In this document: positions 6,251 to 20,628 of the stretch, in pieces
How positions within the stretch are numbered: position 1 is the first letter of the stretch
Layout of the letters: each line of letters opens with the position of its first letter
Assembly: GCF_002283555.1 (NCBI RefSeq)
Contig: NZ_MVOI01000007.1
Coordinates: forward strand, 1 to 64,000
DNA: 64,000 nucleotides
Source of the DNA: Rubrivirga sp. SAORIC476
GTDB lineage: Bacteria; Bacteroidota; Rhodothermia; Rhodothermales; Rubricoccaceae
Direction of reading: 5' to 3'
Program-made: the position numbers and the translations under genes
The notes under the pieces: generated by a model
The model's database searches: none
What the model was told of the DNA's origin: nothing
Seen by the model: the letters and a program-made list of their open reading frames with translations, nothing else

Positions 6251-6262
6251 GGGCGTCCCGGC

Positions 6263-8569
6263 CTACGTAGAGCGGAGCGTATCGAAGAGGGAGTCAACAG
6301 GATCGATCTGCTTTTGTGGATCGGACGATGGCGCCGGTTTCTTCTCTGGAGACGAGGTAGCCCGTTCGGCCTCGCGAGCGGCGCGCTCGACGTTCTCCTG
6401 TTCTGCGTCCGCCTTGGCCTGATCGAACGCTTCTACAACATCGTCTGGCAGCGTCCGGTCGAGTTTCTCTGCGATCTGGACGACCTGCTCTCGGAACGAC
6501 TCGATCATCTCGGGGTCGTCGCGGTAGTTGCTGACAGCGGCGTCAACCTCCTCTTTCGCTACTCGCTCGAATGCGTCGCTGACCGCTTCATTGAGCTGCT
6601 CTGTCAGCCTAGGGTCCCACCACCCCGCATCGGGCATCGCGTCGACGAGGCGCCCGAACGTCTCGGCGTCGTACACCTCGTCGCACGCGGTCTCGAAAGC
6701 CATGGCTTCGCTCTGTGGAGTGGAGATCCGGCCCTTGTACGGATGGTACTGGAGGGCGTCGAGCAGGTCGACGATCGCGTCCTCATGTGACTGACACAGT
6801 TCGATCTCTTCGTAAGCCGAACTCACGAGGGACTTAAGAACCGCCTCGGCATCCGCGCGCGGAAGGGCGCGGAAGGTGCGGACCGCGAACGCCGCTCGAC
6901 CCGTTGCGCCTTCTGGTGCTCGGCGGTGCGCCCGGCCCGGTTCTACGGAGAAGTCAAGTCTCGCCGGCTGGACGCCGAACGTCCGTATGAGGGCAGCACG
7001 TGCGTCCTCCGCGCTGGCGATGCGCCTCAGGACCAAGTAGTGCACCTGCTCGAAGAACACCGCGGTCGCCAGCAACGATCGGGCTTCGTGGGGCCGTCCT
7101 GCCAACCGAGCCTCGACGTAGTCCCGGATGGACGGGTTATGAAAACGGGCGACGTAGCGCCCGTTCACTTGATGGATCGTCGCGACGAACGTGCCGTCCA
7201 ATTCTCTCAGAGCCTCTCGGAAGTCCTCCGGGGCGGTCGGCTGGCGGTGTTGCCGAGAGCGGGCGGTATGGAGAGGCCAGAAGGCGCGCTCCAGATCGTC
7301 GAGGAGGACCCCGCTCGGCAGGGAGGCGAGCACGGTGAGCAAGTGCCGCGAGGCGAGCGACACATGGTTCTCGTAGGCGTGCCTCCAGAGTTCATCGGGG
7401 CGGTCGAGGGCGCGGACGAACCTCTCTGGAAAATGCGCCGGGGGCGTGTCCGGCTCGACGATCCCAGGCGTCGTCATCCAGTCGACGATGCGCGGGCTGA
7501 AGTTAGAATGCTCCACGATCTTCCGGTACGCCCGCTCCTCGAGGAGGGCCTCAGCGTAGGCCCGGTCCAACCCAGAGTGGAGGAGGTGGTTGTACAAGAT
7601 CCGGGCACGGTGGAGTGTGTCGTATCCCTCCAACTCCACCGTGCACTTGGCCCAGTCCACGCCCGGTCGGTCGAGCCGTTCGTGAGCCGCGCGGGCCTGG
7701 CGGAGGATGTACTCTCGCGTCGTGAGGATGAGGCGGGTGTTCTCAGAGCGCCGGACCTCTGCGAACAGCGCGAGCAGGTCGCGGTCCTCGTTCCGCTCCA
7801 ACGACTCCAGCGCCGTCATGCCGAGGAAGTCGTCGAAGTAGAGGGCTTGGTACTTCGACGTGTCGAGCACCTCCAGGGCTTCGGACACCGTCCGGTTCAG
7901 GACGACGAGCTCGTATCCCCGTCCGACGAGATCGGCGGCGAGGATCTCGGCGAGGGTCGTCTTCCCGACCCCTGGGATGCCAGCGATCACGCAGTAGTGG
8001 AGCTGGTCGAGAAGGCTTCGAGCTTCGCCGAGGCTCGGGTGCGGGACGTAGGTCCGGAGCGTGTCGGGGAGTCCGTCGGACAGAATCCTCGCTCGCTCGA
8101 AGAGTCCTCCGTTGAGCACTCGCTGGAGCACCGCCGATGAGGTGAGCCAGAGACGTGGGTGGCGCCTCTCGACGTGGGCGTGGTCCCGGAGCAGACCGTT
8201 GATTTCCTGTGGGCCGATCACGTCCGCCGGCGTTCGTATGAACGGGGAGAACGCCTCAATGACCTCGCGCTTCCTACCGGGGTTCATCGGCAACGACGTG
8301 ACGAACACGTACCGACCGAGGCTCAGAGACCGGACCTTTGGGACTTCTTGGGCGACGGCCTTCTTGAGATCGCTCCACGTCGACCCCGCGTAGTGCTTGC
8401 ACTGGACGACAGTGGTTCCTGCCCCCGACCGCGCGTACCGTAGGTCAACCCCGTCGTCGCGTCCCGCGGAGAACGACTCGAGCGGTACGCCCCACTCCTC
8501 CTGGAGAAGATCGCGCACCAGATCCTCGAAGTCGACGCTCGAGAGCGCGGAGAAGGTATATGCAGGCAT
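6263..8569 (-). CDS. Mrr-like nuclease fused to nSTAND NTPase (defence)
   Basis: 768 aa. Residues 1-115 form a restriction-endonuclease-like domain: DFEDLVRDLL, then GRDDGVDLR and VVQCKHY, the E/D/QxK active-site pattern of Mrr enzymes. A P-loop NTPase follows with Walker A GIPGVGKT at 197-204, Walker B ALYFDDF at 242-248 and sensor LILTTREYIL. This matches novel STAND (nSTAND3-type) NTPases. The C-terminal half is helical and may sense a phage product. The frame is open upstream to 8908, but ATG 8569 is chosen because the nuclease domain begins there. Predicted to degrade DNA on infection after NTPase-driven activation. Confidence 0.85.
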   Translation of the reverse strand: MPAYTFSALSSVDFEDLVRDLLQEEWGVPLESFSAGRDDGVDLRYARSGAGTTVVQCKHYAGSTWSDLKKAVAQEVPKVRSLSLGRYVFVTSLPMNPGRKREVIEAFSPFIRTPADVIGPQEINGLLRDHAHVERRHPRLWLTSSAVLQRVLNGGLFERARILSDGLPDTLRTYVPHPSLGEARSLLDQLHYCVIAGIPGVGKTTLAEILAADLVGRGYELVVLNRTVSEALEVLDTSKYQALYFDDFLGMTALESLERNEDRDLLALFAEVRRSENTRLILTTREYILRQARAAHERLDRPGVDWAKCTVELEGYDTLHRARILYNHLLHSGLDRAYAEALLEERAYRKIVEHSNFSPRIVDWMTTPGIVEPDTPPAHFPERFVRALDRPDELWRHAYENHVSLASRHLLTVLASLPSGVLLDDLERAFWPLHTARSRQHRQPTAPEDFREALRELDGTFVATIHQVNGRYVARFHNPSIRDYVEARLAGRPHEARSLLATAVFFEQVHYLVLRRIASAEDARAALIRTFGVQPARLDFSVEPGRAHRRAPEGATGRAAFAVRTFRALPRADAEAVLKSLVSSAYEEIELCQSHEDAIVDLLDALQYHPYKGRISTPQSEAMAFETACDEVYDAETFGRLVDAMPDAGWWDPRLTEQLNEAVSDAFERVAKEEVDAAVSNYRDDPEMIESFREQVVQIAEKLDRTLPDDVVEAFDQAKADAEQENVERAAREAERATSSPEKKPAPSSDPQKQIDPVDSLFDTLRST

Positions 8570-8589
8570 GCTACACGGCTGTCCAGGTG

Positions 8590-9438
8590 TCAGTCCCCGA
8601 CCACTGCCTCGACGAACAGCACGAGGTCGCCAACAGCGTCGGCCACGTAGGCGTCGTCTACCGCTCCTGCACGGAATCGTGATGCGCCGCGCGGGCCGAG
8701 GCCCTGCTCTGAGAGGAAGTCGGCCTGGAGCACGGCGAGCGCGGCCGCCAGCGCGGGGTGGTCGCCGAGGGCCACCCATCTCGCGGCGACGGCGTCGGGC
8801 CCGCCCGGCCAGTTCCGGACGACGTAGACGAGGTCGTAGGCGTCCTTCTCGCTCCCCCGGTTCCGAAACGCGATGGCCTTGAGGACGACGAAAGCGGCGG
8901 GGCCGCAAACCCGGACGGGGCGTTCGGCCGCGTCCCCATCGAGCGTGGTGCCGGAGACCACGCGGGCCTCGGCGTCGTCAAAGGCGAGGCGGAGGCCGAG
9001 CGCGCGGAGGGCGGCGAGGTCCTCGGTGAGGTGGAGCGTGCGGCCCCAGTCCTGCCCATCGGTCTCCGTCTCGTCGATGAGGAAGTCGACAACGACGGAC
9101 TCCTCGACGCGGGCATAGCGCCAACGCTGCTTGGTGGGGTTGCCCTTTTCGTTCGTGTCTGGTTCGAAGCCCCGGTCGCGGAGACGCTCGGCGAGCTCGT
9201 CGTAACGGTCCTCGTCAACGACGGCGAGGCGGATGCCGAGGTCGACGTCGACGGACCCGACGTGGGCGTCGTCGCGGGCGGCGGCCTCGGCCTGGTCGAC
9301 GAGGAGAGACGGGACCAAGCCACCCACGAGGACTACGTCGTCGTGGAAGTCGCCGAGGGCGACGAGAACCTGGAGGAGCGTCTGCCGGGTCCGTTCCAGC
9401 TGCTCCGGGGTGTAGTCGGTGGCGTAGGGAGTGCTCAC
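8590..9438 (-). CDS. AbiEii-like nucleotidyltransferase toxin
   Basis: 282 aa. The nucleotidyltransferase signature is VVLVGGLVPSLLVDQ followed by GSVDVDLGIRL (GG..., then D-x-D), as in AbiEii/MenT toxins of type IV systems. It continues with strand VVVDFLID and a helical segment FVVLKAIAFRNRGSEKDAYDLVYVVR typical of this fold. It overlaps the partner antitoxin gene by four bases (9435-9438). Family members transfer nucleotides to tRNA or bind GTP and arrest growth. The partner upstream in the operon is an AbiEi-like protein. Confidence 0.85.
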   Translation of the reverse strand: MSTPYATDYTPEQLERTRQTLLQVLVALGDFHDDVVLVGGLVPSLLVDQAEAAARDDAHVGSVDVDLGIRLAVVDEDRYDELAERLRDRGFEPDTNEKGNPTKQRWRYARVEESVVVDFLIDETETDGQDWGRTLHLTEDLAALRALGLRLAFDDAEARVVSGTTLDGDAAERPVRVCGPAAFVVLKAIAFRNRGSEKDAYDLVYVVRNWPGGPDAVAARWVALGDHPALAAALAVLQADFLSEQGLGPRGASRFRAGAVDDAYVADAVGDLVLFVEAVVGD

Positions 9439-10499
9439 GAGGCAGGCGGCGGCGGGTCAAGGGCGAGGGGCCGGAGCGCGTCCTGGAGTTCCGGGCCGCG
9501 CTCGGAATCGTGCTCGAGGTCGACGTACGTCTGAGCCGGGGCCACGCAGCGGAGGCCCTTGACGGGGCGGACGCCGTCGAAGACGCCGCGGTCGTCAGGG
9601 ACGAGGAGGCGGACGTTGGGCGCGCGGGTGTCCGTGCGGAACCCGGCCTCGGACGCGACGGCGACCGGGGTGGGGTGCTCGTCGCGCGTGACGTAGCACG
9701 TCACGAGCCGGAATCCGGCGGCCTGGGTGTAGGCCCAGGCGGCGGCGAGCCCCGTCAGCGCGTAGGAGATTCCGTCCCGGTCGAAGACGTCGGCCAGGCG
9801 GCGGGCGCGCTCCTCACCGGAGCGCCCCGGGAGGTGTCCCGTGATGACCTCGTGGCGGAAGGCGTTGCCGTCGGCCCAGGCGTCGAGGAGGCGGGCGGGG
9901 TCGTGGGCTGTGATTAGTCCGTCGTTGTCGCGGTAGACGAGGTCGGCGTTGAGGAGCCGTCGGACGAGTCGGCTCACGTGGCCCGCGTCGAGATCCGTGG
10001 CCTCGGCGAGCTCCTTCTGAGTCCAGGCGGCACCCGGCGACGCAAGGAGAGTGCGAGCAAGCCGGGCCGACTTCGGAGCGAACGCGTTGCGCGGCCGTCC
10101 GCGCGTCTCGAACGCATTGGGTCGGCCTGATACGTGGACGTAGAGGTCTCCGCCTGGCGTATGCGAGGTGACGTGGGCGTTCCCCGAGAGGTCGGCCCAC
10201 GCGACGCCCTCGGACTCGCAGCGCTCCGCACCAGAAGGGCTCATGTGGGGGACGACGACGAGCGGGGCGGCGCCGTCCATGGACTGCCTACGGAGGTGGG
10301 CCAGCGCCGCCTCGATGGACGTGGGACTCGGGTCCCCCTTCACTTCGACGAGGAACACGTGGGGGCCGACATGCACAACGGCGTCCAGGCCACCCCTCCC
10401 CTCCTCTACGTCGGCATGTGACGAGGCTCCCGTCCAGCGCTCGAAGAGCTGGGCGAGTGCGCGGGGGGCGTCGGCTTCGGAGAACGGCTGGGAGGACAC
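9435..10499 (-). CDS. AbiEi-like antitoxin with nuclease-like N-terminus
   Basis: 354 aa from a GTG. Residues 1-120 resemble a PD-(D/E)XK fold (GGLDAVVHVGPHVFLVEVKGD; D..E-x-K pattern). A winged helix follows (ARLARTLLASPGAAWTQKELAEATDLDAGHVSRLVRRLL, quoted in part) and then an AbiEi-like C-terminal region (YALTGLAAAWAYTQAAGFRLVTCYV). Type IV antitoxins repress their own promoter through the winged helix and counter the toxin without tight binding. The nuclease-like part is unusual compared with short AbiEi proteins. A TTGCC-N6-GGCAA palindrome sits 22 bases upstream of the start codon. Confidence 0.75.
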   Translation of the reverse strand: MSSQPFSEADAPRALAQLFERWTGASSHADVEEGRGGLDAVVHVGPHVFLVEVKGDPSPTSIEAALAHLRRQSMDGAAPLVVVPHMSPSGAERCESEGVAWADLSGNAHVTSHTPGGDLYVHVSGRPNAFETRGRPRNAFAPKSARLARTLLASPGAAWTQKELAEATDLDAGHVSRLVRRLLNADLVYRDNDGLITAHDPARLLDAWADGNAFRHEVITGHLPGRSGEERARRLADVFDRDGISYALTGLAAAWAYTQAAGFRLVTCYVTRDEHPTPVAVASEAGFRTDTRAPNVRLLVPDDRGVFDGVRPVKGLRCVAPAQTYVDLEHDSERGPELQDALRPLALDPPPPAS

Positions 10500-10570: not shown

Positions 10571-11200
10571 TCAGCGCCGGTAGGTGAGCAACCGGCGGCC
10601 GTGACGGAACACGTCGGCGATGGGCTCCGCGCGCGAGCAGTCGAACCCCGCATGGACCAGAAGCCGCTGGACGTCCTCCGACGAGACCGCGACGTTGTGA
10701 GCGGCGCAGTGGCGAACGAAGTCGTAGAACCGCTCCCAATCGTAGGGGTGGAGCCCGGTCATGTTGGCGCATGAGACGAACCGCTGGAAGACGTCGGCTG
10801 CACCTGGGGGGAGTCTAGCGAGGGCGTCGGCTGGCTCGACCAGGAGGCGACAACGAGTCCCGTGCTCCCGGTTGAACGCCCTCAGCAGAGGGGAGAGGAC
10901 GAGCTCCGCGGCCTCTACGTAGACCTCTCGAGTAGGCGCGACCGGTCCCCCGCCCCAGTCTTGAGCGCGGACCTCAACATCGGCCCAACTCCCGCGAGTT
11001 GAGGAGACGAGGAGCTGCGCGCCGAGCCCCCGGTACGGCACGTTTCGTGTCGGGCGAATGTTGAGGATCTCGAAGTCCGTGGAGTCGATGTCGTCGCGCC
11101 GTTCTGCGTCGTATCCCCCCAGCGTGGCCGCGAATCGCTCAACCTCACGGAGGAAGGCATGGGGGTCCGGCGATGCGTTGATGCGGATGTCGGGCAGCAT
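10571..11200 (-). CDS. Hypothetical protein, last gene of the sigma/Ub cluster
   Basis: 209 aa, not recognised. It starts MLPDIRINASPDPHAFLREVERFAATLGGYD and has motifs STDFEILNIRPTRNVPYRGLGAQLLVSS and PYDWERFYDFVRHCAAHN (quoted in part). There is no membrane segment. The C-terminal helix LVHAGFDCSRAEPIADVFRHGRRLL is basic. ATG 11200 lies four bases past the stop of the preceding gene, so it is co-transcribed with it; the open frame before 11200 overlaps that gene and is ignored. Its role can only be guessed from the cluster. Confidence 0.65.
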   Translation of the reverse strand: MLPDIRINASPDPHAFLREVERFAATLGGYDAERRDDIDSTDFEILNIRPTRNVPYRGLGAQLLVSSTRGSWADVEVRAQDWGGGPVAPTREVYVEAAELVLSPLLRAFNREHGTRCRLLVEPADALARLPPGAADVFQRFVSCANMTGLHPYDWERFYDFVRHCAAHNVAVSSEDVQRLLVHAGFDCSRAEPIADVFRHGRRLLTYRR

Positions 11201-11204
11201 CGGA

Positions 11205-11603
11205 CTAGAGGAGGGGCAGACGGCTCCTGTCGTGTTCGGTCGCGTCGTCGAGGAGGTGAACCAGGTAGCCTGTCGCGGCCATCCCCCCAAGCCACTTCGC
11301 AGCTGGATCCGCAGTGGACTGGAGAAGGCGAGCAGTCCCCCATGCGAGGAGGCCGAAGGCCGTCCAGCTATGGAAGAACTCCCGATGGCGTGGCGTCGTG
11401 GCGGGTTCGAGGAGATCGGGCCACGTGCCCGCTACGGCGCCGATAGCGTAACCCGCGAGCCCGAGCGAGAGAGTGCGGCCGAGATCCGGCTGAAAAAACG
11501 GATCGATCTGCCGCCGCGCGTCTTGAACAGCGAGGTCGGTAACGCAGGCGACGAGGGCCGTGGCGGCGGCGCTGCTCTCGATGTGTTGTTGGCGGCGAGG
11601 CAT
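11205..11603 (-). CDS. YdjM-like membrane metal-dependent hydrolase
   Basis: 132 aa from ATG 11603. The conserved pattern GTWPDLLEPATTPRHREFFHSWTAF then GYLVHLLDDATE (an aspartate before a run to HRxFFHS, then HLLxD) matches the LexA-regulated, membrane-associated hydrolase family (YdjM, PF04307). Two hydrophobic segments are visible (LGLAGYAIGAVAG and FGLLAWGTARLL). The family is often damage-inducible, which fits a cluster with a helicase-nuclease. It has tight spacing to both neighbours. The substrate is unknown. Confidence 0.65.
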   Translation of the reverse strand: MPRRQQHIESSAAATALVACVTDLAVQDARRQIDPFFQPDLGRTLSLGLAGYAIGAVAGTWPDLLEPATTPRHREFFHSWTAFGLLAWGTARLLQSTADPAAKWLGGMAATGYLVHLLDDATEHDRSRLPLL

Positions 11604-11643
11604 ATTGGGGCGAGTAGGGGAGGTCAAAGTAGGAGGCTCACCG

Positions 11644-11994
11644 TCAGCACCATGTCACCCGCCCGTCGCGGAGGATGAAGTGGCTCCGGCAGCCGCGGTG
11701 CCGCCAGACGGACGGCGAGAGCGTCGGGACGCCGCCATGAGACGTAAGCCGCCAGCGCGGGCGGTCGTCGGGAAGCAGGCTGAGCTGGATCGTCTCGCCG
11801 CACCCGCACGGGCACGAGAGGACGGCGTACCAGAGGTGGCCGCCCTCGCCGACGGCGACGATCTTGAGTGGATCGACCGCCTCGGGGACTTCGAAGGCGT
11901 GGTCGAGCCGGTAGCGCGGCGGCTCCGTTGGCTGGGGCCGAAACCGGCCGACGATCCACTGGAACGCACGGCCGAAAAGATTCCAGACTCTCAT
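11644..11994 (-). CDS. DUF6527-type metal-binding protein
   Basis: 116 aa. The N-terminus is amphipathic and basic, then residues 52-116 hold the metal-ligand set C61-P-C63-G-C65-G-E67, H86, H99, C102 and H105 (CPCGCGETIQLSLL ... SHGGVPTLSPSVWRHRGCRSHF). This agrees with DUF6527, a Cys/Glu/His/His zinc-binding family found beside prokaryotic E1/E2/JAB genes. It overlaps the E1 gene by ATGA (11991-11994), implying translational coupling. It may act as an E3-like factor or substrate adaptor, but this is inference from position. Confidence 0.8.
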   Translation of the reverse strand: MRVWNLFGRAFQWIVGRFRPQPTEPPRYRLDHAFEVPEAVDPLKIVAVGEGGHLWYAVLSCPCGCGETIQLSLLPDDRPRWRLTSHGGVPTLSPSVWRHRGCRSHFILRDGRVTWC

Positions 11995-13445
11995 GCTGCG
12001 CGCCGGGTAGCGGTTGCCGAGAACTCCGGCATCCCCAGGAGCGGAGAGGTGTCGCCGCGCCCGACGAGCTTCGCCAGTGCGACATCCGGCTCGCCGTCTG
12101 CGTCAGAAAGGAACCGCGACTGCGAGAGGCTGATGCCGTTCCGGGCAAACTTTCGGTTGTCGTCGTCGCGGAACGGGTGGAGCCGAGCGAGCAGCTCGTT
12201 AACCGCGAGCGAGGCGTAGAACGTGTTCACGCTGACGACGGCCGGGCTCCCCTCCTGTACGCCGATCACGTACTTCTCCTCGAGCTGGGACTCGTACAGC
12301 TCGGGGTCGGCGCGGCGGAGGTGGGCGGCCTGGAGCGCGGTGGCCGAGTAGGCCCCTCGGCTGAGGAGGCTCGACCCGCCAGGTTGGAGGTAGTGGACCG
12401 TCCCGTGGACGCCGTCGACGCCGCCCTGGCCGTCGGCGTCAAGGCGTACGCCGACATCAAGATACGGGAGCGCGTAGTGCGTCGCGATCCGGTTCATAAG
12501 GTCCCGACCGTCGACCGAGTCCACACAGCCGAAGAGGACGTCGGCGAGCGCGACGCGGCGGACCACGTCGGCGTCGAAGAGCGAGCTCTGGATCGGGACA
12601 ACGCGCGTGCCGAGGTCCATGCGTCGAACGGCGTCCGCGAGCACCTCGACCTTCGGTCGACCGATGTCGGCACGGGTGGCGTTTAGGATCCGGTTGAGGT
12701 TCCGCTCCTCGACGAGGTCGGGGTCGACGAGGATGATCTCGCCGACACCGAGGCGGGCGAGCATTTCGACGACGGGGCTCCCGGTGCCGGAGGCGCCGAC
12801 GACGGCGACCGAGAGGCGCGAGAGCGCGGCCGTCGTCCCCACCCCGAACGCCTGCGCCGTCCGCTCGGCGAAGCCTGCCACGCGGCCGAGCGCCCCGTCG
12901 CACACGGCGTCGCGGTGGAAAACCCAGAGGTCGTCGCCGGCGACGAGGACGCTTTCGACGGGGACGAACCGCGCGCCGCCCTCGCCGTCGTCGTAGGCCG
13001 CACGGGCGAAGACCTCTCCGCCCGGAAGCATGACAGCGCTCGCGTGCGGGCCGGGGTCGTCGGTCCGCCCCATGACGGACGGGAAGAGGTCGGCGTCCGA
13101 GGCGTCGTCGGTCTCGCTGAAGGCGCGGTAGCCGCCGGGGTGCGAGTGAACCTTGAGGACAGCGAGCCCGCGCCGCTCGGCCCGATCGAACACGTCGAGG
13201 AACGGCTCGACGGGCCACGAGACGAGGACCGGCGTCCGCTCGTGGCACAGGTCGTAGGGGACGGGGATGATGTCGCGGGCGGTGAGGACGTGGCGCGAGC
13301 CCCAGGGTCCCTCGTCGGCGTCGCCGATGCGGCGCCCGCAGAGGACGAGCGCGACGGCCTCGTTCCCGTCGCCGGGGAACAGGTGGTCGTAGAGGGCCGA
13401 GTGCTGACGGCCTGAGAAACGGAGGGACACAGAGGAGGTACTCAT
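11991..13445 (-). CDS. JAMM peptidase-E1 (ThiF) fusion of a ubiquitin-like pathway
   Basis: 484 aa. Residues 15-165 form a JAB/MPN domain with a complete JAMM motif: E29, then H100-S-H102-P with seven residues to S110-x-x-D113; it could trim Ub-like precursors or deconjugate. Residues 205-425 form a ThiF/E1 adenylation domain: glycine loop GASGTGS (217-223), DPD at 241, RILN, K265 and GCVDS (306-310). No cysteine occurs after C307, so the usual E1 catalytic Cys is missing; serines lie where the Cys loop is expected (PGGSSLLSRG). It overlaps DUF6527 by four bases and lies 45 bases after the Ub-E2 gene. Confidence 0.88.
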   Translation of the reverse strand: MSTSSVSLRFSGRQHSALYDHLFPGDGNEAVALVLCGRRIGDADEGPWGSRHVLTARDIIPVPYDLCHERTPVLVSWPVEPFLDVFDRAERRGLAVLKVHSHPGGYRAFSETDDASDADLFPSVMGRTDDPGPHASAVMLPGGEVFARAAYDDGEGGARFVPVESVLVAGDDLWVFHRDAVCDGALGRVAGFAERTAQAFGVGTTAALSRLSVAVVGASGTGSPVVEMLARLGVGEIILVDPDLVEERNLNRILNATRADIGRPKVEVLADAVRRMDLGTRVVPIQSSLFDADVVRRVALADVLFGCVDSVDGRDLMNRIATHYALPYLDVGVRLDADGQGGVDGVHGTVHYLQPGGSSLLSRGAYSATALQAAHLRRADPELYESQLEEKYVIGVQEGSPAVVSVNTFYASLAVNELLARLHPFRDDDNRKFARNGISLSQSRFLSDADGEPDVALAKLVGRGDTSPLLGMPEFSATATRRAA

Positions 13446-13490
13446 GGCGGGATACGGCGGGTGCAGATGGAATCGAAGTCGAGAGAGTGC

Positions 13491-14588
13491 TTAGGCGCGG
13501 CGGGGGCGCTTGACGAACTCCTGCGCGAGCCACTCCTCGACGAGCGCGAGGTGGGTCGAGACGTCGTCGAGGCCGGGCCGCCACGGGTTCTGGGCCGTCC
13601 GGTGGCGGCTCCAGCGCTGGAACGGGGTCCCGCCGATGACGAGCGTCGCGAGCGCGCCGATGGGCTGGCGGTCGGCGCGGACGACTGGCGGGTCGAAGTA
13701 GACCATGTCGATCTGGACCGTCGGGTATCCCGGCGGGATCATGAGCGCGACGGTCGCCGTGCGGGCCTGATAGCCGTCCGGAAGCGGGAAGTCGTGGACG
13801 AGGAGGAACTGGCGGCGGCCGTCGACAACGGTCTCCCAGGGGAGCCCGCGGGCGTCTAGGTGCTCGACGTCGTGCTCGGGGAGCGTGACCTCGCGCCGGA
13901 GCGTGGGGGCGGCGACGGCCCCCTCGTGCTGGTCGAGGGGGACCGTCATGAACCGCTCGACGCCGGGCGCGCAGAACGAGACGGACTCGTCGTAGCCAAC
14001 CTTCTTGGCCTGACCGCCGCGGAGCTTCTGGTCGAGCCGGAACCGGGTGACGGGGTTCTTGCCCGCGAGCGCGAGGATCTCGCGGCCCGTCATGGCCGGG
14101 CGGTCGACGACGTGGCGCTGGCGGTCGACGCGGATGCGGTAGCGCTTGGCGCGGGGCGTCTCGTGGCCGTGCTCGGCGCACGCCTCGATGTCGACGGGCT
14201 CGTCGGCCTCGACGACGACCTCGGCCGTCGGCGCGGCGGCCTTAGCCGCCTCGAGGTCGGCGAGGACGCGGGCCTTGTCCGGGTGGGCGCGGCCCGCCGC
14301 GAGCGGCTCGCCGGTCGTCTGCTGGAACGCCCAGTCGAACCCGCCGTCCTCATCGGGGACGAGCTCGAACTCGGTCTCGGCGAGGCGGTCGGGCGCGCCG
14401 TCGAGCGTGCGGTCGTTGAGCGGGCTCTCGGCCGCGCGGCCGCGGAAGACGTAGAGCCCTGCGAGGCAGTCGCCGAAGTCGGCGTAGGGCTCGCCGGAGG
14501 TGCAGAGCGTGTCGCCGTCGGCGTTCAGGAGCTCCCAGTAGAATTGGGTGTCGTCGGAGGTGTGGAGGACGCGGAACGTGGCGTTCAT
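13491..14588 (-). CDS. YegP repeats-multiubiquitin-E2 fusion
   Basis: 365 aa from ATG 14588. There are four parts. Residues 5-60 and 72-125 are two DUF1508/YegP-like repeats (QFYWELLNADGDTLCTSG; GGFDWAFQQTTGEPLAAGR). Residues 148-217 are a multiubiquitin-type beta-grasp domain (YRIRVDRQRHVV, MTGREILALAG, VERFMTVP). Residues 228-360 are a prokaryotic E2 family E-like domain (LPEHDVEHLDARGLPWE, FPLPDGY, MIPPGYP, FQRWSRH at 324-329, then DDVSTHLALVEEWL). The E2 part has no cysteine; Ser327 in WSRH is a candidate nucleophile. There is no C-terminal di-glycine. Followed by the JAMM-E1 gene, so it is predicted to be conjugating enzyme and modifier in one chain. Confidence 0.85.
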   Translation of the reverse strand: MNATFRVLHTSDDTQFYWELLNADGDTLCTSGEPYADFGDCLAGLYVFRGRAAESPLNDRTLDGAPDRLAETEFELVPDEDGGFDWAFQQTTGEPLAAGRAHPDKARVLADLEAAKAAAPTAEVVVEADEPVDIEACAEHGHETPRAKRYRIRVDRQRHVVDRPAMTGREILALAGKNPVTRFRLDQKLRGGQAKKVGYDESVSFCAPGVERFMTVPLDQHEGAVAAPTLRREVTLPEHDVEHLDARGLPWETVVDGRRQFLLVHDFPLPDGYQARTATVALMIPPGYPTVQIDMVYFDPPVVRADRQPIGALATLVIGGTPFQRWSRHRTAQNPWRPGLDDVSTHLALVEEWLAQEFVKRPRRA

Positions 14589-14630
14589 CGTGTTCGGGGT
14601 CTGGAGAAGCGGGCGGGATTGCCCGACACC

Positions 14631-14663
14631 TCTCCAGTCGTGAGCACGACTCCAAACCGGAAG
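14631..14663 (-). promoter_or_regulatory. 33-bp shared promoter/operator element, copy 1
   Basis: On the plus strand it reads TCTCCAGTCGTGAGCACG, six variable bases, AACCGGAAG. The second copy is at 19774-19806; 27 of 33 positions are identical. It lies 43-75 bases upstream of the Ub-E2 start codon, read on the minus strand. It contains TCGTG-AG-CACGA, an imperfect dimer-like site, and a run of six A/T pairs just beyond. Probably the target of the cluster's own sigma factor or a cognate regulator. Confidence 0.75.
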
Positions 14664-14695
14664 TCCAAGGCGAGGAAAAAACCGGGCCGCGCGCG

Positions 14696-17600
14696 CTACT
14701 TCGGACAGATGAAGTAGAACGGGCAGCGCGGGCACTCGCGAGGGCTGGGCTCTGCGTGGAAGTCGCCGTCGAGGATGCCCTCGATGGCCTTGGCGTACTT
14801 CTCGATCCGTCCGTTCCGCTTCCGGTCGGTCATCTCCATCGGCGTCCGCTCTCCGGTCTCTAGTTGGATCGCCTTAATGGCGTAGTCCCCGTCGGCCACG
14901 GTCGCAGCCTGATGCAGAAGGGCGTAGACGGGCTTGTCCGGTTCCGACTTGCTGAGCCGCCCGGTCTTCCATTTCTGGACGACCGTCTGCCCTCCGACTG
15001 TCGAGACCACATCGGGCCTCACCGTCACGGTCCCATTTCGCAGGTCCACCGTCCACTCAGGGCGAATCTCACCGTCATCGGCAGCAAAGGCGGCCGCGGC
15101 GATCCGCCCGGCCTCAGCTCGGAGGCGGACAGCGTAGGGGCTCTTGCCGAGGCGGTCGTGAGACCATGCCTCATCGAGTATGGTGGCGATGGCCTCCGGC
15201 GTGGGCATTCGCCCCTCGGTCTGCTCGTCAAGGATGTATCGTACTGCGCGCCGGGTCGCCCGGTGGAAATCGAAGTACGCGCTCCCCTCCCCTCTCCCAT
15301 CGAGCCGCAGGACGTGCGAATAGGCGTACTGCCGCGGACACGTGAGGTAGGTGTCGAGCTCTGACCTGGAGAACGGGTCGTCGGGGTCGCGCACCGGCGG
15401 AGCGATAGCCGACGCTGCCGGCGGGTCCAGGGGCGGTTCGTCCGTCCACCGAGCCGGAGCATCGGGGAGAGATGCTGGGACGAGTCCCAGGAGCGTGGAA
15501 GGGTCTCGGTTTGTGTTGATATAGCGCTCTGCACGCGAGAGGCAGAGCGCGTCCCGGGCACGAGAGGCCGCGACGAAGAACAAGCACTCCTCCTCGTCGT
15601 CGTGGAGGTCCCTCAGCGCCGCCCCGACTAGGCCGTCCGGCGGCGGGCACGTGGGCGTCCGGAACGTGTTGGGGAAGTACGTCTTGGCCAGGGCGGGGAC
15701 GTGGACAACGTCGAACTCGAGCCCCTTGCTGGCGTGGACGGTCATGAGCCGGACGGCGTTGATGTCGTCGGCCCACTCGGGCACCTGTCGGACCTGACGG
15801 TCTTGGTTCTGGAGGCTGAGGCGACGGACGTAGTCGAGGAACGCCCGGCGGGAGTAGCCGGGCGCGGCCCCCTCACGGTCGCGGTGACCGAGCGCGAGTG
15901 CGAGGAGTTGATAGACGGCGAGCCGCCGCTGCTGCGTTTCGACCTCAGATCCACCCTCCAGCCGGCGGACGTACTCGCTCTGCTCGAAGAGGTAGTGCGA
16001 GAGGAGGTCCCAGACGGGCACGTTGGGATGGATGCCCGCCACGTGACTCGAGAGGGCGTCGAGGCCCCAGACTCCTGCGTCCGTCAACCCGTCGACGCCA
16101 GATGCCCTTGGCAGCGCTTGGAGGGGGGAGCGTCCGTGCTCCTCGGCCCAGGCCAGCACGCGATCGACGTCGGCACGAGGAACGTCGTATTCAGGAAAGG
16201 ACGCCACGCGGACGAGGCCGCCCCACCCACCCCCGCTCACGAGGCTCACGAGCGAGAGGAGGTCTCGGACCTCGCCCCGCTCGAACACGTTGCCGAGGTA
16301 GAGCATGGGCACACCCTCCTTCTCCAGGACGCGCGCGTAGCGCTCCAAGAGCGTGTGGGTCCGGCAGAGCACGGCCTGGCTCTTCCACTGCGGCTCGCCG
16401 TCAGCGCCAGTGCTCGCGCGGTCGCGGACGGCCCGAGCGAGCCCGAGCCCCTCGGCCTCTAGGGTCGTCGCGACGCTGAGCGACACCTCCCCCGGCGCAT
16501 CGTCGCGGTTAACGTCCCACGGCTCGAACGCCTCTGGTGGGGCCGCGCACATCGATGTAGCGATTTCGGACACGGCGTCGACGATGGCCGGTCGAGACCG
16601 ATAGTTGCACGAGAGACGCTCGACGCGGAGCGAGGGATAGTCCTCGCGGAGCCGGTCGAAGTTGGCCGCCGACGCCCCCCGCCAGCGGTAGATGGACTGG
16701 CGGGGGTCCCCGACGATCCAGAGGCCCCGGCCCGCGCCCGCGACCGCTTTCAGCAAGCGTCCCGACGCGCGGTTGACGTCTTGGAACTCGTCGACGAGGA
16801 CGTGAGCGAAGTCGGACTCAACGCGCTCCCGGACCCCCTCGTCCGACTCCAAGAGGAGGACGGACCGGTAGACGAGGTCGCCGAGGTCAATGGCCCCCGC
16901 GTCGTGGAGCAGACCTTGGTAGGCCGCGTACGCGCGCGCGACGGCCTGGGCCTTCTCGGCCGCCTCGGTCTCCTTATCGGTCGTCGCTGACGCCCGCATC
17001 GCGTTGGCTAGCTCGGCGTACCGCTCAGGACCTACGACCTCGTCCTTCGCCCGCGAGATCGCCGATAGGATGTCCGGGAGGTTGCGGCCGGGGTCCGACA
17101 GTGCCTCGTAGGGACCGAGGTCGATCTCGCCCAAGGCCCCTTCGAGCAGGACGGAGGCGTCAACGGGGTCGAGGACCCTCGGCCGGAGGGGGAGCCCGGC
17201 CTCCTCGTTGTACTTGTGGAGGAGCTCGAGCCCGAAGGCGTGGAAGGTCCCCATCCATACCTTGTGGGCGTCGTCGCCGAGCGCGACCGATACCCGCCCG
17301 CGCATCTCGTCGGCCGCGCGGTTGGAGAAGGTGAGCACGAGAACGCGCTCCGGGTCGACGCCGGACGAGACGAGGTGGGCGACCCGGCCGGTGAGCGTGC
17401 GGGTCTTCCCCGTGCCGGGTCCCGCGACCACCAGGACGGGACCGGCGGCCTTCGCGGCACGCTCCTGGCTCGTGTCGAGGGAGAGGGTCTCGACCCCGTC
17501 CCCCCTCGCCTCGGGCGTGCGATCGGAGTCAGGCGCCGTGCCGATCGACTCAGCGACCAGCACGGCCCGTCCGAGCTGGTGGAACACGAGCGACCGGCTG

Positions 17601-18091
17601 ACACCGACGCGAGAGGCGATGGCCGCGGCGGAGAGTCCGGCGTTGTGCCACTGGCGAAGCCGGTCGGTAGGGAGGAGGAACTCGCGAGCGAAGACGTTGG
17701 CCTCGCGCTCGGCCCGTTCGCGGGGGCTGTACCCCTCGACGCGGGCGACGCCTCCGACGGCCCCCTGGTCCTCGGACGCTTGCTCGTCGATCTCGCTGGC
17801 GAGGCAGGCGTACCCGCCTGTCTCCAACCAGACGTGAGCGAACTCATGGGCCTGGACGAACCGCTGCTGTTCGGGCGGCGCGTCCGCGTTGTACCAGATC
17901 ACCTTCCGGTCCACGTCGAGCTTCCCCTCACCCTTCTCCAACAGAGGATTGTCCGCCTCGACCCCGCGAGAGCGGTGCTCCGTGTGCATCTCCGCGGCCT
18001 CAAGGAGAGAGTCGGCCGTGTAGTCGTCGGTGCCTACGAGCTCCCGGTGGCGGGCTCGTGCGAGGCGTCGGATATCGCTCCAAGCGTTCAC
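14696..18091 (-). CDS. ImmA/IrrE peptidase-UvrD helicase-PD-(D/E)XK nuclease fusion
   Basis: 1131 aa. Residues 1-180 are an ImmA/IrrE-type zinc peptidase: HEFAH at 82-86 and the downstream Glu helix REREANVFAREFLLP (about 128-141), with a short HTH-like segment after it. Residues 205-860 are a UvrD/PcrA superfamily 1 helicase: AGPGTGKT at 223-230, LVLTFSNRAADEM, GTFHAFGLELL, LVDEFQDVN, VGDPRQSIYRWRGA, MTVHASKGLEFDVVHV. The last 250 residues resemble the AddB/Cas4-like nuclease with an Fe-S cluster: TCPRQYAYSH and the closing CPRCPFYFICPK. All three activities seem intact. It follows the sigma and partner genes at 30 bases. Confidence 0.9.
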   Translation of the reverse strand: MNAWSDIRRLARARHRELVGTDDYTADSLLEAAEMHTEHRSRGVEADNPLLEKGEGKLDVDRKVIWYNADAPPEQQRFVQAHEFAHVWLETGGYACLASEIDEQASEDQGAVGGVARVEGYSPRERAEREANVFAREFLLPTDRLRQWHNAGLSAAAIASRVGVSRSLVFHQLGRAVLVAESIGTAPDSDRTPEARGDGVETLSLDTSQERAAKAAGPVLVVAGPGTGKTRTLTGRVAHLVSSGVDPERVLVLTFSNRAADEMRGRVSVALGDDAHKVWMGTFHAFGLELLHKYNEEAGLPLRPRVLDPVDASVLLEGALGEIDLGPYEALSDPGRNLPDILSAISRAKDEVVGPERYAELANAMRASATTDKETEAAEKAQAVARAYAAYQGLLHDAGAIDLGDLVYRSVLLLESDEGVRERVESDFAHVLVDEFQDVNRASGRLLKAVAGAGRGLWIVGDPRQSIYRWRGASAANFDRLREDYPSLRVERLSCNYRSRPAIVDAVSEIATSMCAAPPEAFEPWDVNRDDAPGEVSLSVATTLEAEGLGLARAVRDRASTGADGEPQWKSQAVLCRTHTLLERYARVLEKEGVPMLYLGNVFERGEVRDLLSLVSLVSGGGWGGLVRVASFPEYDVPRADVDRVLAWAEEHGRSPLQALPRASGVDGLTDAGVWGLDALSSHVAGIHPNVPVWDLLSHYLFEQSEYVRRLEGGSEVETQQRRLAVYQLLALALGHRDREGAAPGYSRRAFLDYVRRLSLQNQDRQVRQVPEWADDINAVRLMTVHASKGLEFDVVHVPALAKTYFPNTFRTPTCPPPDGLVGAALRDLHDDEEECLFFVAASRARDALCLSRAERYINTNRDPSTLLGLVPASLPDAPARWTDEPPLDPPAASAIAPPVRDPDDPFSRSELDTYLTCPRQYAYSHVLRLDGRGEGSAYFDFHRATRRAVRYILDEQTEGRMPTPEAIATILDEAWSHDRLGKSPYAVRLRAEAGRIAAAAFAADDGEIRPEWTVDLRNGTVTVRPDVVSTVGGQTVVQKWKTGRLSKSEPDKPVYALLHQAATVADGDYAIKAIQLETGERTPMEMTDRKRNGRIEKYAKAIEGILDGDFHAEPSPRECPRCPFYFICPK

Positions 18092-18121
18092 GTGATTCGA
18101 GACGGGATGAGAGGAGGGCGT

Positions 18122-18841
18122 TCAGCAGGCCTCGTCGAGGATGCGGAGCCAGGCTGCCTTGGCTTCGTCTGTCATGTCTCGGGCGTCTTCAATTCCTTGC
18201 CGGAACGGCTTTGTGACGGCCTCGGGCTTGTGGTCGCGAGACGACGATTGCCCCGCAGCGATCATCGGGGGCTGGGTGATGCTCTGCCGGACGGCCGGGA
18301 GAGGGGGAATCGGGTCGGGGTTGAAGGTCCGGATGTGGTCGAGGATCGCGCGCGCGGTGCAGTCCTTCTCCTCGACCGAGTCGAATGTCCAGCACCCCTT
18401 AGAGAGGTTGAGAATGAAGGAGTAGCCCAGGCCAGATTGGTCCTGAAAGTCGAACGTGTCGATGCCGAGCCGGATCAACATGTCCTCAAACCGTTCGGCC
18501 GGGGAGCCAGGGGCGCCACCGGCCGAGGATGCGAGTTGGGGAACGGCGGGGCTGGGCGGAGCACCGGACTCCGCGCTAGGGACAGGGTCTGTGGTTGTGT
18601 TCTGCTGGAGGAGGCTCCGCACGGCGTTGAGGGAGGCTTCAACATCTGATTCCTCCCCGTCGGTGTCGCCCAACTCCGCATGCTCCATCGCGCTCCACTG
18701 GACGGTGAAGTCAGCGAGCGCGTCGCGGTACTCGGGGAATCGACGAGCGTAGTCGTTCAGGGCCTCGTAGCTAGGACCCTCAGCGGCGTACTGCTCCAGC
18801 ACGTCGTCGAGCGACGGGCGAGCGTGGTTCTGTGTGGTCAT
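18122..18841 (-). CDS. Hypothetical partner protein of sigma factor/ImmA module
   Basis: 239 aa, no family named with confidence. The N-terminus SLDDVLEQYAAEGPSYEALNDYARRFPEYRDALADFTVQW (quoted for its pattern) looks like the short helical region often found in the gene between a sigma factor and an ImmA/IrrE gene. A Ser/Pro-rich linker (residues 85-115) and a C-terminal part with SFILNLSKGCWTF follow. Its start overlaps the sigma stop by ATGA. By position it could be the anti-sigma factor or the substrate cut by the downstream peptidase; that is inference. Confidence 0.65.
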   Translation of the reverse strand: MTTQNHARPSLDDVLEQYAAEGPSYEALNDYARRFPEYRDALADFTVQWSAMEHAELGDTDGEESDVEASLNAVRSLLQQNTTTDPVPSAESGAPPSPAVPQLASSAGGAPGSPAERFEDMLIRLGIDTFDFQDQSGLGYSFILNLSKGCWTFDSVEEKDCTARAILDHIRTFNPDPIPPLPAVRQSITQPPMIAAGQSSSRDHKPEAVTKPFRQGIEDARDMTDEAKAAWLRILDEAC

Positions 18842-19707
18842 GACTGCTTTAGGATGTCTCGGAGCTTCTTCTCGGCCTTGCGAAGCCAGCTCGAGATGGT
18901 TCGTGGTGACTTGCCAAAATGGGAGCTCAGAGTGACGGCTTCTGCGTCATTGGCCTCAATCTGCCACTCATCGAAGTAGTGGAGTCGCAGAACATCCCGG
19001 TACGGGGTTGGGTGGTTGGGGAGATCGCGCACTGCCGCCCGGAGGAGATCGTCGTCGTGCTCCTGCGTGAGGGCCTCCCATGGCGTGACCGACTCCCAAC
19101 CACCGAGCGGGGTCGCCATCTCAGCGGGAGCGTCGTCGTCCGCAGGCTCCCCGTTCATGGTCGAGACATCAACCGACTGGCGCTCGCGATCCCGTTTATC
19201 CCCGGCAACGCGGGTGACGTCGGCCGTCCGGTACCGGAGGAACTTCCAGAACCGGGATTGCGCGAAGTCGCTCTTGTCGCTCTCCAGGTCGAGGATTCCG
19301 CCCTCTCGACGGTCTTCTCCTCGGACCTTGCTGCCCCCAAATACGCGAAAGAGAACCTCCTGGACCATCTCGGTCACCCGCTCCTCGTCGTCCTCGTAGC
19401 GGAACCCGACCTCGCGCATCCACTTCTTGATGGTGCCATCGGTTCGCTTTACGAGCACGTCGCATAGCTGCCCCTCAATGAAGGAGTCCCCTCGGAGCTT
19501 GTAGTAGCGGATCAGGAAGACAAGAGCCTCCTCTCCGACAAACAGGGCGTGATCCTTGTCCCGGACCCTCGCTCGCTTGACGAGAGTGTCTCGCGAGATG
19601 GAAAGGGCCGCCTGGATGTGGGCCTCGGTCTCTGCGGTACGCTCGTACCCGTTCCGGGTGAGTTGGGGGAGGACGTGGACGGGGGGATCAGTAGTAACGA
19701 TGGTCAT
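18838..19707 (-). CDS. Sigma-70-family (ECF-like) RNA polymerase sigma factor
   Basis: 289 aa. The C-terminal region 4 HTH is clear: LPNHPTPYRDVLRLHYFDEWQIEANDAEAVTLSSHFGKSPRTISSWLRKAEKKLRDIL (quoted in part), with an acidic linker before it. The N-terminal half has region-2-like helices (ALVFLIRYYKLRGDSFIEGQLCDVLV; VTEMVQEVLFRVFGG; FWKFLRYRTADVTR). It is longer than standard ECF factors of about 200 aa. It is the first gene of the eight-gene cluster and has the 33-bp element 67-99 bases upstream, suggesting autoregulation. Confidence 0.8.
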   Translation of the reverse strand: MTIVTTDPPVHVLPQLTRNGYERTAETEAHIQAALSISRDTLVKRARVRDKDHALFVGEEALVFLIRYYKLRGDSFIEGQLCDVLVKRTDGTIKKWMREVGFRYEDDEERVTEMVQEVLFRVFGGSKVRGEDRREGGILDLESDKSDFAQSRFWKFLRYRTADVTRVAGDKRDRERQSVDVSTMNGEPADDDAPAEMATPLGGWESVTPWEALTQEHDDDLLRAAVRDLPNHPTPYRDVLRLHYFDEWQIEANDAEAVTLSSHFGKSPRTISSWLRKAEKKLRDILKQS

Positions 19708-19773
19708 CGAAGGAGGAATCAGACGGGGTCGTGGGCTAGATCATGGGACCGGGTAGAGTGAGGGTGCGTGGGT

Positions 19774-19806
19774 CTCCAGTCGTGAGCACGGATGCGAACC
19801 GGAAGC
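19774..19806 (-). promoter_or_regulatory. 33-bp shared promoter/operator element, copy 2
   Basis: Same element as at 14631-14663: an 18-base identical block TCTCCAGTCGTGAGCACG, six differing positions within a six-base window, then AACCGGAAG. A GCGAAAAAAGTTT stretch follows on the plus strand, matching the A-run beside copy 1. It lies upstream of the sigma gene. Confidence 0.75.
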
Positions 19807-19827: not shown

Positions 19828-20628
19828 CTATGCGGCGTAGCCCGTGTCCGCCCATCGAGCTTGGCCGAGGGTGGCGAGGGTGTCGAGGAGGTCGGCGACG
19901 GCGGCGCGGGGGGCGCGCTTGAAGCGCTGGGAGACGGCCTCGACGGTCATGGGGCGGTCGGCCTCGCGCGTGACGGCGGCCTGGCGGCGGGCGGGGTCGA
20001 GCGCCTCGGGGTCGGTCCAGGCGAGGCGGAGCCGCTCGCGGATCTCGGGGCGGCTGAGGTCATCCAGGGTGACGCGGTAGGTCCGGTTGTCGGGGAACGG
20101 GACGTAGCGCTGGGGGTGGCCGAAGTTGGCGTAGAGGTCGAGGCAGTGGCCGACGTCGCAGGCGATGACGAGCGGCGGGACGGGCTCGCCCACGCCGTCG
20201 AGGTCGAGGTTGCGGGCGTAGCGCTCGGCCTGGCGCTTGGCGGCGGCGAGGGTCCGGTCCCAGGCGGGCGTGCCGCGCTTGCCGTGGCCCGCCGAGCGCG
20301 ACTTGCCCTTCCCTTTGGCGCGCGCGGCGTTCTCGGCGTCGACGCCCTGCTTGGTCTCCAGGACGAAGCAGCCGCGCTTGTAGAGGTCGATGCGGCCGGT
20401 CCCGGCGTCGGCGGCGTCTTGGAAGTCGACGGGCCGCTCGAACACGTAGCCGTCGCGGGCGGGGTCCTTGGTGGCGGGCTCGGGGCCAGACACGGCGAGG
20501 AGCGCCGCCAGCTCGATGAGGAACGGCTGGGCGTTGGCGAGCTCGGCGGCCTGGGCGGGCCGCCAGCGCTCGATGAACGCGTCGAGCGCGTCGGGGTCGA
20601 TGTCGTCGGGACCGTCTTGTACTTGCAT
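19828..20628 (-). CDS. Internally deleted type IIG restriction enzyme (nuclease plus C-terminal tail)
   Basis: 266 aa. The N-terminus (FIERWRPAQAAELANAQPFL; GRIDLYKRGCFVLETKQG, a D..E-x-K nuclease site; VIACDVGHCLDLYANFG; VTLDDLSRPEIRERLRLAW) matches the nuclease domain of MmeI-like type IIG enzymes, which are normally 900-1100 aa. After residue 225 the sequence jumps to a wHTH-like tail (MTVEAVSQRFKRAPRAAVADLLDTLATLGQAR) typical of their extreme C-terminus. The methyltransferase (FxGxG, NPPY) and target-recognition parts are absent. Either a relic of internal deletion or a stand-alone nuclease reusing both ends. There is no separate methylase nearby. Confidence 0.7.
   Translation of the reverse strand: MQVQDGPDDIDPDALDAFIERWRPAQAAELANAQPFLIELAALLAVSGPEPATKDPARDGYVFERPVDFQDAADAGTGRIDLYKRGCFVLETKQGVDAENAARAKGKGKSRSAGHGKRGTPAWDRTLAAAKRQAERYARNLDLDGVGEPVPPLVIACDVGHCLDLYANFGHPQRYVPFPDNRTYRVTLDDLSRPEIRERLRLAWTDPEALDPARRQAAVTREADRPMTVEAVSQRFKRAPRAAVADLLDTLATLGQARWADTGYAA

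Follow-up and report, generated by a model that had tools for sequence, protein, structure and literature searches.

In the draft genome of Rubrivirga sp. SAORIC476 (4.48 Mb), the first 64 kb of contig C7, referred to here as the window, contain eight minus-strand genes, among them a bipartite locus in which a control cassette is followed by a Bub (bacterial ubiquitination-like) operon. The cassette encodes a sigma factor, a small partner and a protein in which an ImmA/IrrE peptidase, a UvrD helicase and a PD-(D/E)XK domain are joined, and the Bub operon encodes a YegP-ubiquitin-E2 fusion, a JAB-E1 protein and a DUF6527 protein. We consider it probable that the cluster is a DNA-triggered immune switch together with its effector operon. 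The cassette has the appearance of a switch dedicated to turning on bacterial ubiquitin-like immunity, because it fronts ubiquitin-like gene sets across many phyla together with a matching promoter sequence.

Results

The cassette recurs beside ubiquitin-like operons

Among 98 related genomes, the sole full-length ortholog of the 1131-aa (amino acid) peptidase-helicase protein is found in G029 (61% identical), a genome without an E2 homolog. The sigma, partner and peptidase-helicase genes of G029 (locus L033) lie directly before a different ubiquitin-like operon, recognised as Bil by PADLOC models (BilD, 1.2e-162; BilA, 1e-48; BilC, 2.2e-61); the three homologs share one operon, and the gene in the E2 position matches DUF7665. 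A tblastn search returned 89 plasmid records with homologs at 32-36% identity, 78 of them covering at least 80% of the query, and a contig scan of other genomes with generic UvrD patterns added at least seven in-family loci.

Plasmid neighbourhoods, seven loci from other genomes, G029 and the window gave 31 loci with the long peptidase-helicase protein, which were scanned with hidden Markov models (HMMs). Sigma and partner genes are present in all of them, and a ubiquitin-like operon adjoins the cassette in 27 (Bub E1 in 15, Bil E1 in 12). The 16 loci that stood outside HMM building (L065-L072 and L145-L153) all carry sigma and partner, and 13 have the ubiquitin-like operon. The initial annotation had taken the two halves to belong together, and this proposal holds: their co-occurrence is frequent rather than rare, and a chance neighbourhood was rejected on the strength of the 27 adjoining pairs. 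Many copies of the cassette are plasmid-borne. On plasmids of Robbsia and Abditibacteriota, cassette and Bub operon are divergently oriented, and in L063 an IS256-family transposase gene splits the sigma gene.

The Bub operons of G064, G045 and G093 have instead a cassette of sigma factor, partner and short ImmA peptidase. Such short-peptidase cassettes (L034, L038, L039 and L054) keep the gene order and have neither the helicase nor the promoter-like element described below; because the element was not found there, we regard them as relatives that do not belong to the same promoter class. L055 was dropped from this group since its third protein is not ImmA. Its Mesorhizobium Bub operon (L055:4691-7197, minus strand) is accompanied by sigma-like and partner-like genes, and by eye the third gene resembles a proteasome-type (Ntn) hydrolase, perhaps another protease in the role of ImmA. 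Within the same genus as the window (G002), a sigma-like gene lies beside a 963-aa Eco57I-type methylase (L035:5603-8982, minus strand), the N-terminus of which resembles short-cassette partners by eye; the pair is oriented divergently to a Bub operon in which ubiquitin and E2 are encoded separately. A CoiA-like gene follows the Bub operon of L049 (13993-14694), and genes for a DNA-repair exonuclease plus an AAA ATPase, or for exonuclease VII, lie downstream of several ubiquitin-like operons (L151, L152 and L153).

A duplicated promoter-like element precedes cassette and effector

A 28-bp element resembling promoters of extracytoplasmic function (ECF) sigma factors, CTTCCGGTT-N14-CGAYT, occurs in the window before the sigma gene (P1) and before the Bub operon (P2). 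The two upstream regions have a 33-bp stretch in common, CTTCCGGTT...CGTGCTCACGACTGGAGA, with a score of 24.2 against a shuffle maximum of 12.8. Genome-wide, the exact pattern matches at P1 and P2 alone, and the reversed-pattern control gave no match. A position weight matrix (PWM) was derived from 14 sites, leaving out the tested locus and scoring the window without its own sites. By this matrix P1 is the top-scoring of 127,946 positions, and the element 5' of the Bub or Bil operon ranks 1-3 in 19 of 26 loci (approximately 30-40 thousand positions per locus). Among nine loci fetched later for validation, seven succeeded, one was weak and one failed. Upstream of ten Bub operons without the long cassette, the element was not found. 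It is asymmetric, with two different half-sites at a fixed 14-nt spacing; the Bub copy in the window includes an inverted repeat, TCGTG-CT-CACGA, that is not kept in other loci.

A second copy lies 5' of the sigma gene in seven loci (the window, L033, L061, L062, L065, L147 and L151) and, in 11 others, within the sigma gene, roughly 200 bp 5' of the ATG of the partner. As this in-gene copy is coding, for Y-R-x-x-L-x-x-A-I, the effect of coding constraint had to be separated by a wobble test. Wobble bases match the motif in 10/11, 11/11 and 9/11 cases, against 3.8, 5.2 and 2.5 expected from codon usage, and further wobble positions in 11/11 and 10/11 against 3.3 and 3.4; the test is partly circular, the sites having first been found by the PWM, yet their codon position is homologous in all of them. 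Within a locus the two copies covary, with 12 mismatches compared with 43.9 after shuffling (P=1e-5; upstream copies, P=0.0008; in-gene copies, P=0.007), values that are uncorrected for the relatedness of the loci. In L153 a Bil effector is combined with a promoter variant and an in-gene copy of the type common with Bub cassettes, so the element follows the cassette and not the effector.

A third copy in G029 (L156:434-461, contig C27) lies 46 bp 5' of where an HmaA-HmaB-HmaC anti-phage operon begins on the same contig; the sigma factor may control several defence operons. This HmaABC-like operon also includes an antitoxin/PIN-like pair. Between 7551 and 7701, the divergent Bub/cassette promoter region of L056 (Robbsia) has a long near-palindrome of which TTTAGAGT-AAAC-ACTCTAAA is part; it may serve the helix-turn-helix (HTH)-like partner as an operator.

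The peptidase-helicase protein carries a probable pseudonuclease

Pfam assigns UvrD (1e-62), PDDEXK_1 (1.5e-17) and Peptidase_M78 (1e-16) to the 1131-aa protein. In all 30 aligned peptidase-helicase proteins the peptidase HExxH, Walker A and motif II are kept, as are the cysteines of a Cas4/AddB-like iron-sulfur site, and the features of a UvrD-type superfamily 1 helicase (Walker A, motif II DExQD and motif VI) are present. The nuclease motif D...(D/E)-x-K is broken in every homolog: the acidic residue of D/E-x-K is lost in 30/30 and the lysine mostly too, the window having K-W-K. For this reason the term nuclease, used in the initial annotation, is probably wrong, and the C-terminal domain is probably a pseudonuclease. 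This assignment relies on motif comparison, because a search of the PDB with the C-terminal domain found no active-nuclease template for alignment.

Sigma factor and partner

The match of the sigma gene product to TIGR02937 (9e-7, residues 111-285) is below the cut-off in a single-sequence HMM search. A sigma-family profile searched against the PDB matched FliA best (3.1e-7) and also SigL, SigK and SigE, and all 50 PDB matches listed by Foldseek for the AlphaFold model (mean predicted local distance difference test (pLDDT), 73) are sigma factors or transcription initiation complexes, none of them reaching E<=0.001. Taken together, the TIGR02937, profile and fold matches cover sigma regions 2 and 4. 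They support a sigma-like fold, from which core RNA polymerase binding and initiation at a cognate promoter are predicted, the promoter-like element being the candidate site, and the ECF-like label of the initial annotation, weak by the single-sequence search, gains support from profile and fold.

The partner consists of an N-terminal helical domain, an HTH-like middle and a C-terminal tail, which in homologs carries a SYKxDxKP-like motif. It is HTH-like by alignment. Around half of 26 weak, non-significant fold matches of its model are XRE-type HTH proteins, including SinR as well as DdrO and CapH, the two known substrates of ImmA/IrrE-type peptidases (PMC13373217, PMC10904395). The partner of one short-peptidase cassette carries an HTH detectable by Pfam.

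The ubiquitin half is a Bub operon

The fusion protein of the window matches Prok-E2_E (8e-37), Multi_ubiq (1.1e-14) and DUF1508 (5e-7), and JAB-E1 matches ThiF (2e-33) and Prok-JAB (1e-8). Against the Citrobacter structures, JAB-E1 aligns with BubCD (PDB 9ea4, E=2.9e-85, residues 10-475) and the E2 with BubB (PDB 9eav_D, E=6.5e-25). With JAB fused to E1, a BubB-type E2 homolog (here fused to the ubiquitin-like domain) and a beta-grasp ubiquitin-like domain, this half is a Bub operon, a known system, and conjugation activity is predicted from its sequence. Bub is reported to use serine in place of cysteine. The window E2 has no cysteine, like the E2-like domains of the type 6e operons of Iyer et al. 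2006. Type 6e includes a Zn-finger protein with the signature C-x3-C-x(35-38)-H-x2-C (PMC1779556); the window DUF6527 protein shows a zinc-finger-like signature, and the strict pattern was unmatched in the other eight copies tested.

YegP/DUF1508 is joined to the ubiquitin-like domain and E2 in the window. A similar fusion occurs in L034, and one with E2 separate in L035. YegP may act in the Bub pathway, because it is fused here and, in published loci, separate yegP genes lie near CapK+CapS.

Layout of the locus and neighbouring genes

The open reading frames (ORFs) of all eight minus-strand genes were confirmed in the order given by the initial annotation, Pfam backing the domains it named (YdjM weakly), and both four-base overlaps that it had noted are present as ATGA, between sigma and partner (18838-18841) and between E1 and DUF6527 (11991-11994). 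The YdjM-like and last genes, which it had counted as members of the cluster, were rejected since they are not present in relatives' operons. Coordinates are collected in Table 1.

Table 1. Features of the locus in the window
Feature	Position	Strand	Details and basis
Promoter-like element P1	19778..19805	-	CTTCCGGTT-N14-CGACT; 70 bp 5' of sigma ATG; sequence, genome-wide match, PWM
Sigma factor (ECF-like), 289 aa	18838..19707	-	TIGR02937, profile and fold matches
Partner, 239 aa	18122..18841	-	Present in 31/31 cassettes; alignments
ImmA/IrrE (M78) peptidase-UvrD helicase-PD-(D/E)XK probable pseudonuclease, four conserved Cys, 1131 aa, GTG start	14696..18091	-	Pfam
Promoter-like element P2	14636..14663	-	CTTCCGGTT-N14-CGACT; 47 bp 5' of Bub operon ATG
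YegP/DUF1508-Multi_ubiq-Prok-E2_E (BubB-like) fusion, 365 aa, ATG start	13491..14588	-	Pfam, PDB match
JAB peptidase-E1 (ThiF) fusion, BubCD homolog, 484 aa	11991..13445	-	Pfam, PDB match
DUF6527 protein, zinc-finger-like signature C-x3-C...H-x2-C, 116 aa	11644..11994	-	Pfam 3.7e-25
YdjM-like gene	11205-11603/11627	-	Pfam weak (4e-5, below cut-off)
Gene of no named family (last of eight)	10571-11200	-	ORF

Between cassette and Bub operon lies a gap of 107 bp (14589-14695), which contains a promoter-like element of its own. A single uninterrupted operon is disfavoured because the second element lies in this gap, and by its sequence the cluster appears to consist of two transcription units, the element being duplicated. 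Hence, of the claim that one control element governs the whole operon, the shared element stands and the single operon does not. ATG 14588 is the most likely start of the E2-fusion gene, since alignments with relatives begin at that codon and the promoter-like element sits in the gap; the longest ORF, from GTG 14735, would overlap the helicase gene and is disfavoured. Scans for sigma-70 promoters and for terminators gave nothing clearly over chance level.

The genes at 5162-10499 are those of a defence island: a phage-type integrase (5162-6250), an Mrr-nSTAND3 protein matching PDC-S73 (6263-8569, 2.4e-137), an AbiEii/NTP-transferase-like gene (8590-9438) and an HTH protein (9435-10499). On the other side of the cluster, a 266-aa ORF (19828-20628) matches only the N-terminal part of an MmeI-like type IIG restriction enzyme (PADLOC, 2e-67, profile positions 4-210 of 1136) and is probably a truncated remnant beside the cassette. 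The product of 22257-24041 is related to that of a reverse-transcriptase-like gene of L038 (1.2e-47) and is possibly a group II intron protein.

Discussion

The joining of a CapP/PprI-like peptidase to a DNA motor and a probably dead nuclease module, in a cassette that also encodes an HTH-like partner and a sigma factor with a promoter class of its own, suggests that cleavage triggered by DNA frees the sigma factor. CapP is activated by single-stranded DNA and cleaves CapH, and PprI is stimulated by single-stranded DNA and cleaves DdrO (PMC13373217, PMC10904395). In the resting cell, the partner would hold the sigma factor inactive. The UvrD motor and the probably dead PD-(D/E)XK module would engage abnormal DNA, such as ends, single-stranded DNA, phage or plasmid DNA, or damage, whereupon the peptidase domain would cleave the partner. 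The freed sigma factor would guide RNA polymerase to the -35/-10-like element TTWCCGGTY-N14-CGAYT; its copy before the cassette would provide positive feedback and its copy before the Bub operon would switch on the Bub enzymes, which would then conjugate the ubiquitin-like domain to targets, with defence against phages or plasmids as the expected outcome. On balance we lean towards a dedicated immune sigma system in which a cytoplasmic DNA-sensing protease destroys the inhibitor and the sigma factor then recognises a promoter class of its own, which stands in front of the cassette, in front of Bub or Bil operons and, in at least one genome, also in front of an unrelated Hma defence operon.

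Several observations weigh against this reading. The fold search with the partner model (pLDDT 70) gave no significant match (E>1), and the anti-sigma role of the partner is for this reason a guess. Four of the 31 cassettes have no adjacent ubiquitin-like operon: insertion-sequence genes follow the cassette in L051 and the contig ends in L069, and the cassettes of L066 and L072 (Acidobacteria and Roseiflexus), which do not adjoin any ubiquitin-like operon, look like true orphans. The element was not found in L048, L056, L057 and L146 and is altered or weak in L068, L070 and L149. Since the 31 loci are related and were partly hand-picked for diversity, their counts are not independent samples.

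The pairing of an ImmA/IrrE peptidase with an HTH-like partner is also the arrangement of CapH/CapP and PprI/DdrO, and the partner could instead be a repressor at or near the 28-bp element that is cleaved after DNA damage, in which case the sigma-like protein would be an accessory activator without being the main specificity factor. The weak likeness of the partner model to the SinR, DdrO and CapH HTH domains, the Pfam-detectable HTH of the short-peptidase partner and the inverted repeat in the window's Bub copy would all fit such derepression. We find it possible but doubtful: the element is asymmetric and its spacing fits a sigma -35/-10 pair, not a symmetric repressor site, the repeat is not kept elsewhere, and the sigma gene is in every cassette and first in order. 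It is very improbable that the peptidase-helicase acts as an effector in its own right, degrading or blocking invading DNA, with the ubiquitin-like operon a second effector of the island and their shared control incidental. Its UvrD-like domain does resemble GajB, many copies lie on plasmids and the setting is that of a defence island, but such an effector is disfavoured by the loss of the nuclease motif in homologs that all keep HExxH, and the fixed order of sigma, partner and peptidase, the element common to both units and the short cassettes, which hold these three genes without a helicase, also speak against it.

The same switch might serve a general DNA-damage or stress response, with ubiquitin-like conjugation on host proteins. 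The initial annotation had linked the ubiquitin half to phage defence; the half proved to be a known system, and the same cassette elsewhere fronts the anti-phage system Bil, but Bub itself is not known to protect a host against phage (PMC13373217), which leaves room for a role outside defence. We rate such a role as unlikely, given the known function of Bil, the element before Hma in G029 and the many plasmid copies.

If the immune-switch reading is true, the system would amount to a transferable sigma regulon that serves bacterial ubiquitin-like immunity and is carried across phyla on plasmids, and the release of a sigma factor by a DNA-sensing protease would account for the activation of some of the ubiquitin-like systems. 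Sigma overexpression would then be a simple inducer for testing the function of such systems, and the promoter motif could guide a search for other defence genes that are controlled in this way.

Comparison with known systems

The window has BubCD and BubB homologs, a multi-ubiquitin protein and a Zn-finger-like companion, as in Bub and type 6e operons, and differs from them in the fusion of YegP/DUF1508, ubiquitin-like domain and E2 and in the cassette placed in front. In a survey of 544 Bub operons, 278 have CapW, CapH+CapP or CapK+CapS (CapW or CapH+CapP, 219 together; CapK+CapS, 59) and 266 have no assigned controller (PMC13373217). The consulted part of this survey mentions no upstream sigma factor or UvrD fusion, and Iyer et al. 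2006 nowhere mention a sigma factor or helicase (PMC1779556). A literature search, in which the central recent literature was covered incompletely, found no description of a sigma factor combined with a helicase fusion and a dedicated promoter.

CapH+CapP and PprI/IrrE-DdrO likewise place an ImmA/IrrE-family metallopeptidase beside an HTH-like partner, upstream of a defence operon. We did not file the cassette as CapH+CapP, because the constant sigma gene and the fused helicase go beyond that two-gene system. In the window a sigma factor is added, the peptidase is fused to a UvrD helicase and a probably dead PD-(D/E)XK domain, and a dedicated ECF-like element stands before cassette and effector, which implies activation rather than simple derepression. 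CapK+CapS controllers also lie upstream of Bub and Bil, with YegP homologs recurring nearby, and parts of CapK and CapS resemble sigma-factor regulators (STAS, GHKL kinase); they comprise a kinase and a STAS-winged HTH repressor, whereas the window has an actual sigma factor and a protease. BilABCD is fronted by the same cassette in 12 of the 31 loci, while the window has Bub.

Classical ECF sigma/anti-sigma pairs under regulated proteolysis, such as SigE-RseA and AlgU-MucA, combine a sigma factor, a small partner, a protease and an autoregulated promoter, as the window appears to do. Their proteases are membrane proteins, whereas that of the window is an ImmA/IrrE peptidase of the cytoplasm joined to a DNA motor, and the predicted regulon is the neighbouring immune operon. 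We place the cassette among the controllers of defence operons, with a probably new mode of control in which the peptidase-plus-HTH logic resembles that of CapH+CapP.

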